From positions 1 through 40,805 of the IMG/VR virus record IMGVR_UViG_3300008627_000017: 40,805 nt of DNA; one strand, written 5' to 3'. Shown here piece by piece: positions 1,403-27,873 of this stretch. Position numbers and translations under genes: made by a program. Position 1 is the stretch's first letter. Each line of letters starts with the position of its first letter. Source of the DNA: a virus. The notes under the pieces are model-generated. The model saw nothing but the letters and a program-made list of their open reading frames with translations, was not told where the DNA came from and made no database searches.

Positions 1403-2566
1403 TTGAATTTTAGTAAAAAGTTTTTCGATATTCCAGAATTTGATTTTGAAGGCGAAAAGAAAAAGTTTATAGATAATTTAGATTTTCTTAAATCAATGTC
1501 AGTACAAGAACAAACGTTATATAAAAAATGGCAAGAGTTTAATAAAAATGATTATGGTATTAGACGTAAGGCTAGTAAGTTTAATGCACTCTATCATCGG
1601 TTATGGAAACCTACAGACATTTATAATAAAGAGTTAACTATCAAAGAAATAGAATCAATAGATCCTGTTGTGGAATATGTTCCATCTGAAGGAGCTAGTG
1701 AATGGACTCTTTATCGTATGTTAATTCATACTATGGATTGGAGTGCTAACCCAGGTCGTAATCAGAAATATATTATTAAAGATAAAACAACTAATAGAGT
1801 TTTAGGTTTAGTATCTATGGGTTCTGATGTAACTTCAATTAAAGTTCGTGATGATTATATAGGATGGACTAAAGATAATAAGTTTGTAGATCATAAATTA
1901 AATAATACAGCTATTGCAAGTACTATCGTATGTACTCAACCAATTGGTTTTAATATGTTAGGTGGTAAGTTAATTGCAGCTTTAACTACTTCATCTGCGG
2001 TTAGAGAACAATGGTATAAAGATTATGAAGATGTTTTAATTGGTATAACTACTACATCACTATATGGAGTTCATTCACAGTATAACGCAATACCACATTG
2101 GAAAACACTTGGTGAGTCAGCTGGTAAGATTGCAATTAAACCTGATGATAGTGCTTATTTTGTTTGGGCTGATTGGTTAAAAGAAAATCATAGAGAAGAG
2201 TTTGATAAGGCACAAAGTCAAACAGGACCTAAACAAAATACTATAAATCGTATCTTTAAACATCTTGGTATTAAAGGTAAAGATTATGAGCACGGATTTC
2301 ATAGAGGTGTATTTTTTGCAAATATGTATGACAATGGTTTAGAGTATTTGAGAAATGAAATCCAAGAAAAAGATTTGGTTATGAAAGATAAATTTAAAAA
2401 TGATATAGATTACATAATGAATTGGTGGAAACCAAAAGCTGTTAGACGTTATGTTAAACTATATGAAGATAATAGAATTAAACCCGAAGTACTTTTCTAT
2501 GGTGATATTGTAGGAAAGACTTGGGAAGAAACTAAGCAACAATACTTAGGAGAAGTAGGAAGATAA
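1403..2566 (+). CDS. DUF4338 / DruA-like protein
   Basis: 387 residues from a TTG start with AAAGG 8-12 nt upstream. No ATG gives a comparable N-terminus. The centre (about 130-250) matches what I recall of DUF4338: RVLGLVSMGSD, RDDYIGWT, a Cys-Thr-Gln-Pro segment then GFNMLGGKLIAAL, REQWYKDYEDV and a glycine-rich strand near residue 220. DUF4338 includes DruA of the Druantia defence locus, whose biochemical role is not settled. It is the first gene of an operon whose following genes overlap by 1-8 nt. On a phage it may act against competitors or serve DNA metabolism (inference). Distant homology only, so the family call is tentative. Confidence 0.5.
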   Translation: MNFSKKFFDIPEFDFEGEKKKFIDNLDFLKSMSVQEQTLYKKWQEFNKNDYGIRRKASKFNALYHRLWKPTDIYNKELTIKEIESIDPVVEYVPSEGASEWTLYRMLIHTMDWSANPGRNQKYIIKDKTTNRVLGLVSMGSDVTSIKVRDDYIGWTKDNKFVDHKLNNTAIASTIVCTQPIGFNMLGGKLIAALTTSSAVREQWYKDYEDVLIGITTTSLYGVHSQYNAIPHWKTLGESAGKIAIKPDDSAYFVWADWLKENHREEFDKAQSQTGPKQNTINRIFKHLGIKGKDYEHGFHRGVFFANMYDNGLEYLRNEIQEKDLVMKDKFKNDIDYIMNWWKPKAVRRYVKLYEDNRIKPEVLFYGDIVGKTWEETKQQYLGEVGR

Positions 2567-6850: not shown

Positions 6851-6921
6851 GGGGCTGTAGTATAACGCGAGTACAGCGGATTTGCACTTCGCAGGTCGGG
6901 GTTGGATCCCCCGCAGCTCCA
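6851..6921 (+). tRNA. tRNA-Ala (anticodon TGC)
   Basis: Full cloverleaf by eye. Acceptor GGGGCTG/CAGCTCC has G3-U70, the alanine identity pair. The D-stem is GTAT/GTAC, the anticodon stem GCGGA/TTCGC with loop TTTGCAC (anticodon TGC at 6883-6885), and the T-stem CGGGG/CCCCG with loop TTGGATC. A6921 is the discriminator and CCA is not encoded. In the T-loop, position 56 is G, and in the D-loop the normal G18-G19 reads G18-C19. This looks like a reversal of the universal G19-C56 tertiary pair. It lies 12 nt after the sigma factor gene. Confidence 0.88.
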
Positions 6922-6944
6922 CACTATATGAAAAGGGTAATAAT

Positions 6945-25805: not shown

Positions 25806-25874
25806 ATGTTAAAAGCATGTGAAAATCCGAATTGTAAATGTGAAAATTGCAATTGTAAAAATTGTAATTGTTAA
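25806..25874 (+). CDS. 22-residue cysteine-rich metallothionein-like peptide
   Basis: ATG to TAA, with ribosome binding site TTAGGAG 7 nt upstream, 13 nt after the barrel gene and 13 nt before H-NOX. After MLKA the chain is CENPNCKCENCNCKNCNC. Eight of its 18 residues are Cys, in CxC and CxxC spacings with Asn/Lys/Glu between. This pattern suits thiolate metal binding (Cu, Zn or Fe) or an iron-sulfur/NO trap. It lacks a signal peptide, so it is cytosolic. Too short for family assignment, but the strong ribosome binding site and non-overlapping position argue for expression. Confidence 0.65.
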   Translation: MLKACENPNCKCENCNCKNCNC

Positions 25875-25887
25875 TTAGGGAAATACA

Positions 25888-26436
25888 ATGTATGGTATGA
25901 TAAATAAGGCAATTAGAACCTTAGTTATACGAGAAGCAGGAGAAGAGGTTTGGAATCAAGTACTTGAAACTTCTGGAATAGGCGAAGATGTATATGAGGA
26001 TTTAGATGCTTATGATGATGGGATAACATTCTCATTAGTTGGAGCAGTTTCAGAAACATTAGGAATTCCAGCAGGAGATGTATTAGAAATGTTCGGTGTT
26101 TATTGGGCAACAGATGTTGCACCAAAAGGATACGGAGAATATTTCAACGCGTTTGGTAATGACTTTAAAAGTTTTGTGGCAGGATTAGATGAGATGCATG
26201 TACGAATTACAAAAATGTTACCAAGTTTAGTTCCACCTGCATTCAGTATAGAAGAATTGGGAGAAGATCATTTTAAGATACATTATGTATCACAGAGAGA
26301 TGGTTTGGCTCCATTAGCAGTTGGTATGTTAAAGGGAGTGGCTCAACACTTTGGTGGTGAGGCAGACATATCTCAATTAGAATATAAAGGTACTGATGAT
26401 CACGATGTGTTCGAGGTACGATTTAAAGAGAAATAA
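25888..26436 (+). CDS. H-NOX (heme nitric oxide/oxygen binding) domain protein
   Basis: 182 residues, a complete stand-alone H-NOX. The N-terminus MYGMINKAIRTLVIREAGEE is the family start. Then come DAYDDGITFSLVGAVSETLG and EMFGVYWA, the proximal heme ligand H104 in LDEMHVRITKMLPSLVPPAF with the conserved Pro pair, and the heme-propionate motif Y133-V-S135-Q-R137. The end DVFEVRF is also typical. Known bacterial H-NOX proteins bind ferrous heme, sense NO and control adjacent histidine kinases or c-di-GMP enzymes. The residue matching the O2-stabilising distal Tyr140 of Thermoanaerobacter appears to be Pro142, so NO selectivity is predicted. The downstream gene, three bases on, carries an MshEN domain. 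Confidence 0.9.
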   Translation: MYGMINKAIRTLVIREAGEEVWNQVLETSGIGEDVYEDLDAYDDGITFSLVGAVSETLGIPAGDVLEMFGVYWATDVAPKGYGEYFNAFGNDFKSFVAGLDEMHVRITKMLPSLVPPAFSIEELGEDHFKIHYVSQRDGLAPLAVGMLKGVAQHFGGEADISQLEYKGTDDHDVFEVRFKEK

Positions 26437-26438
26437 TA

Positions 26439-27101
26439 ATGAACGGAAAAAAGTTAGGTGAATTGTTATTACATGGAGATGTTTTAACTAAAAGACAACT
26501 TAATAAAGCTATTGCTATGCAACAAGCAGGTGATGATAGAAAGTTGGGTGAAATTTTAGTTGAATTGGGATATATAACTGTAGATGATATTACTGATGTT
26601 ATGATGCAACAGGCATCTAAAGCACAGGAAGTAGTAGAAAAAGGAAAAAGGGATTTTGTATTACAACAACAAATTCTTAAACAGAAAACAAAACCAAAAG
26701 TAACTACACCAGCTTCAGTTACACCAGCTCCAACTAAGAAAAACGAACCAATAGATTTGAGTGAAGATGCGGTAATGAAAACAAAGTTTGCATTAGATGT
26801 TAAAACTATGATTAGTGCAGCAGTTGGTATTGCAACACTTGTTGGTTTCTATTATATGATGATGGGTGAAATACAAGAAGCAAAAGAACTTCCAAATTTG
26901 GAAAGTTTATATCAAGAAGAATATCCATCAAGACCAGAGGGTTATAATTGGCCAAGGTCTTACGAACAATATAAAGATAATGTCGAAGGTTTACAAGATG
27001 AAATGGATGATGCTTACGGAAGAATAGAAGAACTTGAAGAACTTATTAAGGAATTACAAAACGACATTAAATCACTTGAACGAAGAAAGAGGGATAAATA
27101 G
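26439..27101 (+). CDS. MshEN (PilB/MshE N-terminal, c-di-GMP-binding type) membrane-anchored coiled-coil protein
   Basis: 220 residues. Two tandem MshEN motifs: KLGELLLHGDVLTKRQLNKA to Q28, and KLGEILVELGYITVDDITDV to Q58. They match the RLGxxLxxxG...L...Q motif that binds c-di-GMP in MshE. Motif 1 is one residue short and both have Lys for the first Arg. A Pro/Thr/Lys linker (82-103), one transmembrane helix (about 122-142) and a C-terminal coiled coil (183-217) follow. There is no ATPase domain, so it is not a pilus motor. The next-door H-NOX suggests an NO-to-c-di-GMP or membrane signalling pair (inference). It might also be a spanin-like or virion membrane factor. Confidence 0.65.
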   Translation: MNGKKLGELLLHGDVLTKRQLNKAIAMQQAGDDRKLGEILVELGYITVDDITDVMMQQASKAQEVVEKGKRDFVLQQQILKQKTKPKVTTPASVTPAPTKKNEPIDLSEDAVMKTKFALDVKTMISAAVGIATLVGFYYMMMGEIQEAKELPNLESLYQEEYPSRPEGYNWPRSYEQYKDNVEGLQDEMDDAYGRIEELEELIKELQNDIKSLERRKRDK

Positions 27102-27103
27102 TT

Positions 27104-27544
27104 ATGAATAGGTCAAAATTAATTAAGTTGAGTTTTAAATTACTATGTATTATGGGATTGGCATTTATATTATGTGGAAATGTTGTAAATGGTCAAGACA
27201 GAAAACCAAAGGTAGAGATTATCAATGATGATAACTTTAAGAAAAAAGTGGCAAAGGGATTTGTTCTTATTAAATTTACAGCTCCATATCAAATGAAAAA
27301 ACTTGATAATAAATTATTTGATGGTGTAAAGGGATTTGAAGGATGTGTTATTTATATAGTTGACCATTCAGAAGTTAAAAAAGTAGTTAAGAAACTTAGA
27401 ATACGAAATTATCCATCAATTGCGTTATTCCATAATGGAAAAAAGAAAGAAGTTTGGAAGGCAGATATGGATGGTGTTGTGGATGTTAATAATAAAGAAA
27501 TTAAAAAGGCAATATCAGATGCAATGGCAGGAGATGTATTCTAA
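27104..27544 (+). CDS. Exported thioredoxin-fold protein lacking CXXC
   Basis: 146 residues. The signal peptide or anchor is residues 1-31 (FKLLCIMGLAFILCGNVVNG). FVLIKFTAPYQMKKLDNKLF occupies the place of the thioredoxin active-site strand, with APYQMKK where WCxxC is expected. The cis-Pro strand NYPSIALFHNGKK is intact. The fold therefore seems kept, the redox site lost. It would act in the periplasm as a binding or chaperone-like module. FILC-G is not a good lipobox. It overlaps the next gene by one base and follows the MshEN gene by two nt. Confidence 0.6.
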   Translation: MNRSKLIKLSFKLLCIMGLAFILCGNVVNGQDRKPKVEIINDDNFKKKVAKGFVLIKFTAPYQMKKLDNKLFDGVKGFEGCVIYIVDHSEVKKVVKKLRIRNYPSIALFHNGKKKEVWKADMDGVVDVNNKEIKKAISDAMAGDVF

Positions 27545-27873
27545 TGCCAAAAGGTGATTGTTATGAAGCAAATGGTAGAATTGTAATGCAGAAAATGTCT
27601 GCTCCTGATGAAAAGAAGTGGAAACTTTGTCATGGTGTAGGAATATTACAATCAGATGGAAAACCATTTGGACACGCCTGGGTAGAACATGGTAGTAGGT
27701 GTATTGACCAAAGTAATGGACAAGATATAAATTTTCCAAAAAAATTATATTATGCATTAGGCAACTTTCCAGTTAAAGGATATAAGATTTATAAATATAC
27801 ACCAGAACAAACAGGATTGGCTATGGTAAGAAATCAACATTGGGGGCCGTGGGATTCAAAACCACCAAGATAA
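27544..27873 (+). CDS. Conserved phage protein with Cys/His (papain-like?) motif
   Basis: 109 residues. An N-terminal GDCYEANGRIVM, a central FGHAWVEHGSRCIDQSNGQD and then KKLYYALGNF give a Cys...His...Asp/Asn order typical of papain/transglutaminase-like folds: Cys after GD, HAWVE, then a polar D/N. I recall similar short proteins in other phages, annotated only as hypothetical. Catalysis is not shown. The TAATG overlap links it to the thioredoxin-fold gene. Confidence 0.5.
   Translation: MPKGDCYEANGRIVMQKMSAPDEKKWKLCHGVGILQSDGKPFGHAWVEHGSRCIDQSNGQDINFPKKLYYALGNFPVKGYKIYKYTPEQTGLAMVRNQHWGPWDSKPPR

Follow-up and report, generated by a model that had tools for sequence, protein, structure and literature searches.

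What does a marine tailed phage do with a haem-based sensor, and on which protein would such a sensor act? These questions are raised by a gene located in a 40,805-nucleotide stretch of viral DNA (IMG/VR record IMGVR_UViG_3300008627_000017, referred to here as the window), whose product had been read from the sequence alone as a complete, stand-alone H-NOX (haem NO/O2-binding) protein with His104, a PP-AF segment and a YxSxR motif. The gene starts with an ATG codon, encodes 182 aa (Table 1) and does specify a complete H-NOX. The profile search and the structure prediction suggested by that reading agree on this identity. The protein matches the HNOB profile (PF07700, Pfam) over positions 1-162 of 163, with an E-value of 4.3e-45 and a score of 154 bits, far above the curated cut-off of 25.5 bits. 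Its best match among PDB sequences (phmmer) is the Nostoc H-NOX Alr2278 (E=4e-42), followed by sGC beta1 and further bacterial H-NOX structures. Similarly, the AlphaFold2 model (pLDDT 82.7, pTM 0.80) adopts the H-NOX fold, with the Nostoc H-NOX 2o09 as the top Foldseek match (E=2.6e-16, TM 0.86). In the alignment with Alr2278, the window protein holds the proximal His104, Pro116-Pro117 of the PP-AF segment, and Tyr133, Ser135 and Arg137 of the YxSxR motif. None of the 12 aligned phage copies departs from His104, and every copy long enough to cover Pro117, Tyr133 and Ser135 has these residues as well. The description as stand-alone is correct for the protein, but it overlooked a constant partner gene directly downstream, here named C3.

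Table 1. Features of the window and of related loci discussed in the text.
Feature	Coordinates	Strand	Basis or remarks
DruA-like protein	1403-2566		PF14236, E=9e-23
tRNA-Ala (TGC)	6851-6922		
Predicted outer-membrane beta-barrel protein, 426 aa	24512..25792	+	Sequence, alignment A3, synteny K5
Cys-rich micropeptide ORF MLKACENPNCKCENCNCKNCNC, 22 aa, metallothionein-like	25806..25874	+	Sequence scan of loci
H-NOX protein, 182 aa	25888..26436	+	HNOB, PDB phmmer, AlphaFold2 and Foldseek, alignments, dN/dS
Partner protein C3, 220 aa	26439..27101	+	Profile against PDB, AlphaFold2 and Foldseek, adjacency to H-NOX in other contigs
Secreted thioredoxin-fold protein, 146 aa	27104..27544	+	Pfam Thioredoxin E=7.7e-9, synteny
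109-aa protein, weakly transglutaminase-like	27544..27873	+	Relatives within the same block in L003 and L012
Open frame of at least 2044 aa	34673-40804		Runs off the contig end
Other Cys-rich micropeptides	L011 9289-9357; L013 9919-9987; L060 16363-16419; L139 6963-7043		
K11 membrane protein			Cluster examples: L163, L160, L191, L123, L137

The ligand of the sensor had been predicted from a Pro residue placed at the position of Tyr140, which was taken to favour NO over O2. In the alignment with Alr2278, Pro142 of the window protein corresponds to Ns Pro143, and Leu143 to Ns Met144, which, like sGC beta1 Ile145, we take to be the equivalent of Tt-Tyr140. The distal residue is therefore Leu143, and the original assignment was off by one. 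The inference that it served nevertheless survives, as the distal pocket lacks a hydrogen-bond donor. The triad of residues that stabilises O2 by hydrogen bonding in H-NOX proteins is formed by Trp9, Asn74 and Tyr140 (PMC7356049). At these positions the window protein exhibits Ile9, Trp73 and Leu143, so that the triad is absent, and an O2 sensor was rejected on these grounds. Judging from this apolar pocket, the protein is predicted to sense NO and not O2.

A redox sensor, the mode proposed for the haem-free H-NOX of Vibrio cholerae, was considered as well, as a thioredoxin-fold protein and a Cys-rich peptide are encoded in the same block. This mode operates through Cys oxidation (PMC7108781), yet neither the window protein nor any phage H-NOX of the alignment contains a single cysteine. 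This reading was accordingly rejected, and we regard it as barely credible.

The gene belongs to phages. In the window, its neighbours include T4-type baseplate wedge proteins (identified with PHROGs), a primase, an SbcC-like protein with a calcineurin-like phosphoesterase domain and a PDDEXK resolvase. The window also holds a DruA-like gene, related to part of the Druantia defence system and separated by some 8 kb from the genes of the baseplate, a tRNA-Ala gene (relatives carry tRNA-Cys and tRNA-Ala, and one of them five tRNAs), and a single very long open frame with no Pfam match. The search of viral metagenomes for the same gene beside T4-like genes, also suggested by the sequence-only reading, revealed homologues in 14 further IMG/VR loci (76-93% identity) from 13 metagenome datasets, and the H-NOX-bearing contigs collapse by nucleotide identity to about 11 viral populations. 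These represent at least two unrelated types of tailed phages, T4-like and non-T4, the latter (L005-L010 and L014) with S74 tail fibres or other tail genes; a tape-measure gene also occurs in the non-T4 type. Another H-NOX phage is split over two contigs of the Marinimicrobia MAG UBA6531. The first contig encodes a tape-measure protein and then the H-NOX, which breaks off after 26 codons, and the second one begins within C3 and carries tail-like and DNA-related genes. Pairwise dN/dS values of the phage H-NOX genes are approximately 0.04-0.20 where synonymous sites are unsaturated, which indicates that the gene is under purifying selection. Between lineages these sites are saturated.

These data bear on the possibility that the gene was recently captured from a host and has no function in the phage, or that the contig is an assembly chimera. 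The H-NOX is certainly an accessory, optional part of its block, missing from most phages that bear C3. This scenario is nevertheless extremely unlikely given the number of viral populations and datasets, the phage genes on both sides, an omega far below 1 and the saturation between lineages. A host chimera in particular was rejected, as flanks of the same kind recur in independent contigs, so that the attribution of the gene to a phage holds.

The earlier statement that no phage H-NOX had been described was confirmed within the resources searched. No relative was found in the phages of INPHARED, in PHROGs, or among the viral structures of BFVD (best match, TM 0.31), and a wider pattern scan of viral contigs recovered the same family only. 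In the literature, of which the searches covered a part, no system combining an H-NOX with a phage, or an H-NOX with an MshEN domain, is described. Matches on plasmids are of the cellular type and 23-30% identical. In the tree, the phage proteins form one group with weak support (74/64). The nearest sampled cellular relatives, found in Planctomycetota, Roseobacter and Nostoc, are 36-42% identical, and no donor was identified among them.

The second question, that of the partner, was approached through genomic association, which shows the pairing of the H-NOX with C3. In the window, C3 starts two bases past the end of the H-NOX gene, and elsewhere the two genes overlap by 1-11 bases. C3 abuts or overlaps the H-NOX gene in all the loci that continue past it (the window, L002-L007, L012 and L014). 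A broader scan detected at least 80 C3 loci, and C3 without H-NOX is widespread in marine T4-like phages, although no match was found in the cultured phages of INPHARED. Since most T4-like relatives have C3 without H-NOX, the core function of C3 does not need NO. In non-T4 backbones, among the loci listed, C3 occurs only alongside H-NOX wherever the upstream side is visible, and the pair has therefore moved together. The copies linked to H-NOX are clustered in the tree of C3 (four changes versus 7.7 after shuffling; 0/500), all within a single supported group of 12 members, a few of which lack H-NOX.

The protein C3 consists of an N-terminal MshEN/GSPII domain (approximately residues 3-60), a basic linker, one TM helix (a hydrophobic 19-mer at approximately 124-142) and a C-terminal coiled coil (175-219). 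Its profile matches PilB (5zfr, E=1e-11), PilF (6f8l, 1.6e-8) and MshE (5htl, 1.8e-5) in the PDB. The AlphaFold2 model has a mean pLDDT of 60, with confidence confined to the MshEN domain and the C-terminal coil, and its top Foldseek matches are the c-di-GMP complexes of MshE and PilF (probability 0.95-1.0, 1.8 A over about 55 residues). The linker on the N side of the helix is basic and an acidic stretch follows on the C side, a charge distribution that suggests an N-in, C-out topology.

Binding of c-di-GMP was evaluated with the published definition of the MshEN motif (PMC5013675). All the parsed copies keep the K/R, L, G and Q residues of motif I. The last residue of motif II is Gln or Glu in 8/8 distinct H-NOX-linked copies versus 1/25 parsed others (Fisher 6.5e-7), counts that are not phylogenetically independent and that leave out 19 "KIG" variants skipped by the parser. 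Examined by eye, most of these variants close motif II with His, Asn or Ser, a few of them possibly retaining Gln or Glu (L142, with ...ILKQ, and L150 and L151, with ...ILES). Close H-NOX-less relatives from the same C3 group (L139, L175 and L176) also lack the motif II Gln. The five T4-like H-NOX-linked proteins hold K/R-L-G and a terminal Gln in both motifs, and the non-T4 ones end motif II in Glu. In addition, Asp replaces the turn Gly at position 10 of motif I in 7/8 distinct H-NOX-linked copies. In PilF, single Gln-to-Glu mutants bind c-di-GMP with an affinity of approximately 0.5-1 uM, and a Lys at motif position 1 does not preclude binding at 6 nM (PMC11731258). According to the fold and the motifs, binding of c-di-GMP by C3 is plausible, but it may be weak or lost due to the Asp at position 10 and the motif II Glu of the non-T4 proteins.

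The link with C3 must be weighed against a direct action on the host, in which the H-NOX would mainly rewire signalling by binding a host kinase or diguanylate cyclase, with C3 as an independent neighbour. Cellular H-NOX relatives of the same clade adjoin HNOBA-PAS-histidine-kinase genes (L021), and exactly one GGDEF protein is encoded in 34/40 genomes of the possible host family, which would offer a single target. The host itself, Marinimicrobia for one lineage, is weakly assigned through the binning of phage contigs in the UBA6531 MAG. The outer-membrane protein encoded upstream of the H-NOX has no homologue in 245 genomes of this phylum and is thus of no help. In the same phylum H-NOX is nearly missing (2/245 genomes, both distant), so that a host docking partner for an H-NOX is improbable there, and the constant adjacency or overlap of C3 across backbones favours C3 as the partner. 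This alternative is thus unlikely. Among the neighbours of the H-NOX between 24512 and 34410, no kinase, GGDEF, EAL or HNOBA effector was detected with Pfam.

In marine T4-like phages, the block runs from tail fibres through an outer-membrane protein, a lipoprotein, H-NOX (when present) and C3 to the thioredoxin-fold protein. Genes for a membrane protein that binds cyclic nucleotides, a holin-like product, a metallopeptidase, a nuclease and a primase often come next, in this order. Among the loci listed, the thioredoxin-fold gene follows C3 directly in 66/77 C3 loci, and the outer-membrane gene (K5) is present in 58 of these 66. The thioredoxin-fold protein has a signal-peptide-like N-terminus and its CxxC motif is replaced (APYQMKK). 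The outer-membrane protein, also found just upstream in the T4-like relatives, has a signal-peptide-like start and a C-terminal aromatic strand, features from which a beta-barrel is predicted.

Two further gene families occur in this region. Many marine phages encode, within the envelope block and upstream of C3/H-NOX, Cys-rich micropeptides of 14-26 aa that are metallothionein-like and show a CxCxxCxC pattern. The 87 loci contain 29 such ORFs, invariably on the strand of the genes, and three resampled controls contain none. The membrane protein K11 (214 aa in L191) matches Popeye POPDC1-3 (E=7e-14) and a cNMP-binding domain (E=3e-16), and its gene lies two to three positions past C3 in 28/62 H-NOX-less loci and in 0/4 of the T4-like H-NOX loci examined.

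The position of the pair offers clues to its output. The sequence-only reading had suggested the timing of lysis or the scavenging of NO. Lysis is circumstantially favoured in two lineages. Downstream of the pair, L007/L029 encode small TM proteins and a GH108 muramidase (E=5e-25), and L003/L012 encode the thioredoxin-fold protein and a holin-like product (E=5.5e-4, short of the Pfam cut-off). A third backbone, the UBA6531 phage, speaks against it by placing the pair between tape-measure and tail genes and not among lysis genes. T4 late-promoter-like sites show a modest excess over shuffles, with an uninformative placement, and no T4 late-promoter consensus lies between 25792 and the H-NOX gene. 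Scavenging found no specific support. A late-made haem protein acting as a sink could bind NO and protect the infected cell or phage replication, and other NO-related genes (norB/nirK) are carried by phages of marine OMZs (PMC8115048). A stoichiometric binder has a small capacity compared with enzymes, though, and would not require a conserved membrane partner, making this role very unlikely.

Control of pili or entry is also compatible with the late/envelope position of the pair, because PilB provides the closest match to the MshEN domain and phages are already known to inhibit pilus assembly. In its strongest form, C3 would be a decoy of the N-domain of a type IV pilus/secretion motor (PilB), blocking pili and the entry of competing phages, and the H-NOX would tune it. 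The possible host genomes encode MshEN domains in PilB-like ATPases of 575-607 aa. C3 exhibits no residue-level sign of binding to pilus platform proteins, its late-gene location is atypical of early exclusion genes, and there is no evident reason for an NO input, all of which renders the decoy rather improbable.

According to these data, the interpretation that we prefer, and to which we give an even chance, is that positions 25888-27101 constitute a two-gene signalling cassette of marine tailed phages, in which an NO-sensing H-NOX acts on the membrane protein C3 to adjust a late envelope event. In this cassette, the H-NOX would bind ferrous haem through His104, sensing NO rather than O2, and would act on the co-translated C3, anchored in the inner membrane. 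The cytoplasmic MshEN domain of C3 would probably bind c-di-GMP and, if the charges are a reliable guide to topology, the coiled coil would be periplasmic. Expressed with the late/envelope block, the pair would then adjust an envelope event of late infection to the status of NO and c-di-GMP, with lysis timing or entry/pilus blocking as the leading candidates for the predicted output. More tentatively, the pair may function as a coincidence detector, mobile between unrelated phages, in which the H-NOX (NO) and the membrane MshEN protein (c-di-GMP) jointly decide the event, such as the timing of lysis.

Phages read peptides and host damage signals, but we know of no description of gas sensing by a phage, and a coincidence detector of this kind would be, to our knowledge, the first phage system to sense a gas. 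NO is a signal of both stress and respiration in the host, and the phages with the H-NOX pair are suggested to read it during infection. If the pair works in this manner, how an infection ends in waters that are denitrifying or poor in oxygen could hinge on NO, and phages would directly read c-di-GMP as a signal. The association with H-NOX also provides testable functional leads for C3, a widespread gene family of marine T4-like phages.

Compared with known systems, the phage protein resembles Alr2278, the stand-alone cyanobacterial Ns H-NOX, in length, fold (TM 0.86), invariant haem contacts and an apolar distal pocket with a Trp. It differs from it in being 36% identical, encoded by phages and paired with an MshEN membrane protein instead of a kinase. 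As in the bacterial systems that control histidine kinases or c-di-GMP enzymes, a stand-alone H-NOX shares an operon with its putative effector and shows a link to c-di-GMP. Unlike the effectors of those systems, C3 has no kinase, GGDEF or EAL domain, and is predicted to read c-di-GMP, not to make or degrade it. With the MshEN (GSPII) domains of MshE, PilB and PilF, C3 shares two tandem 24-residue motifs, the four-helix fold and, in the T4-like H-NOX-linked proteins, the Lys/Arg-Leu-Gly and Gln contacts of both motifs, but it lacks the ATPase and shows a fused TM helix and coiled coil, a 6-residue spacer and the Asp at the motif I turn. The occurrence of a known sensor family in a new setting is thus well supported, the type of partner is undescribed in the literature searched, and the mechanism is plausible. 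The closest ecological parallel is provided by the OMZ viruses with norB/nirK (PMC8115048), likewise marine tailed phages with NO-related genes, which encode enzymes there and a sensor here.
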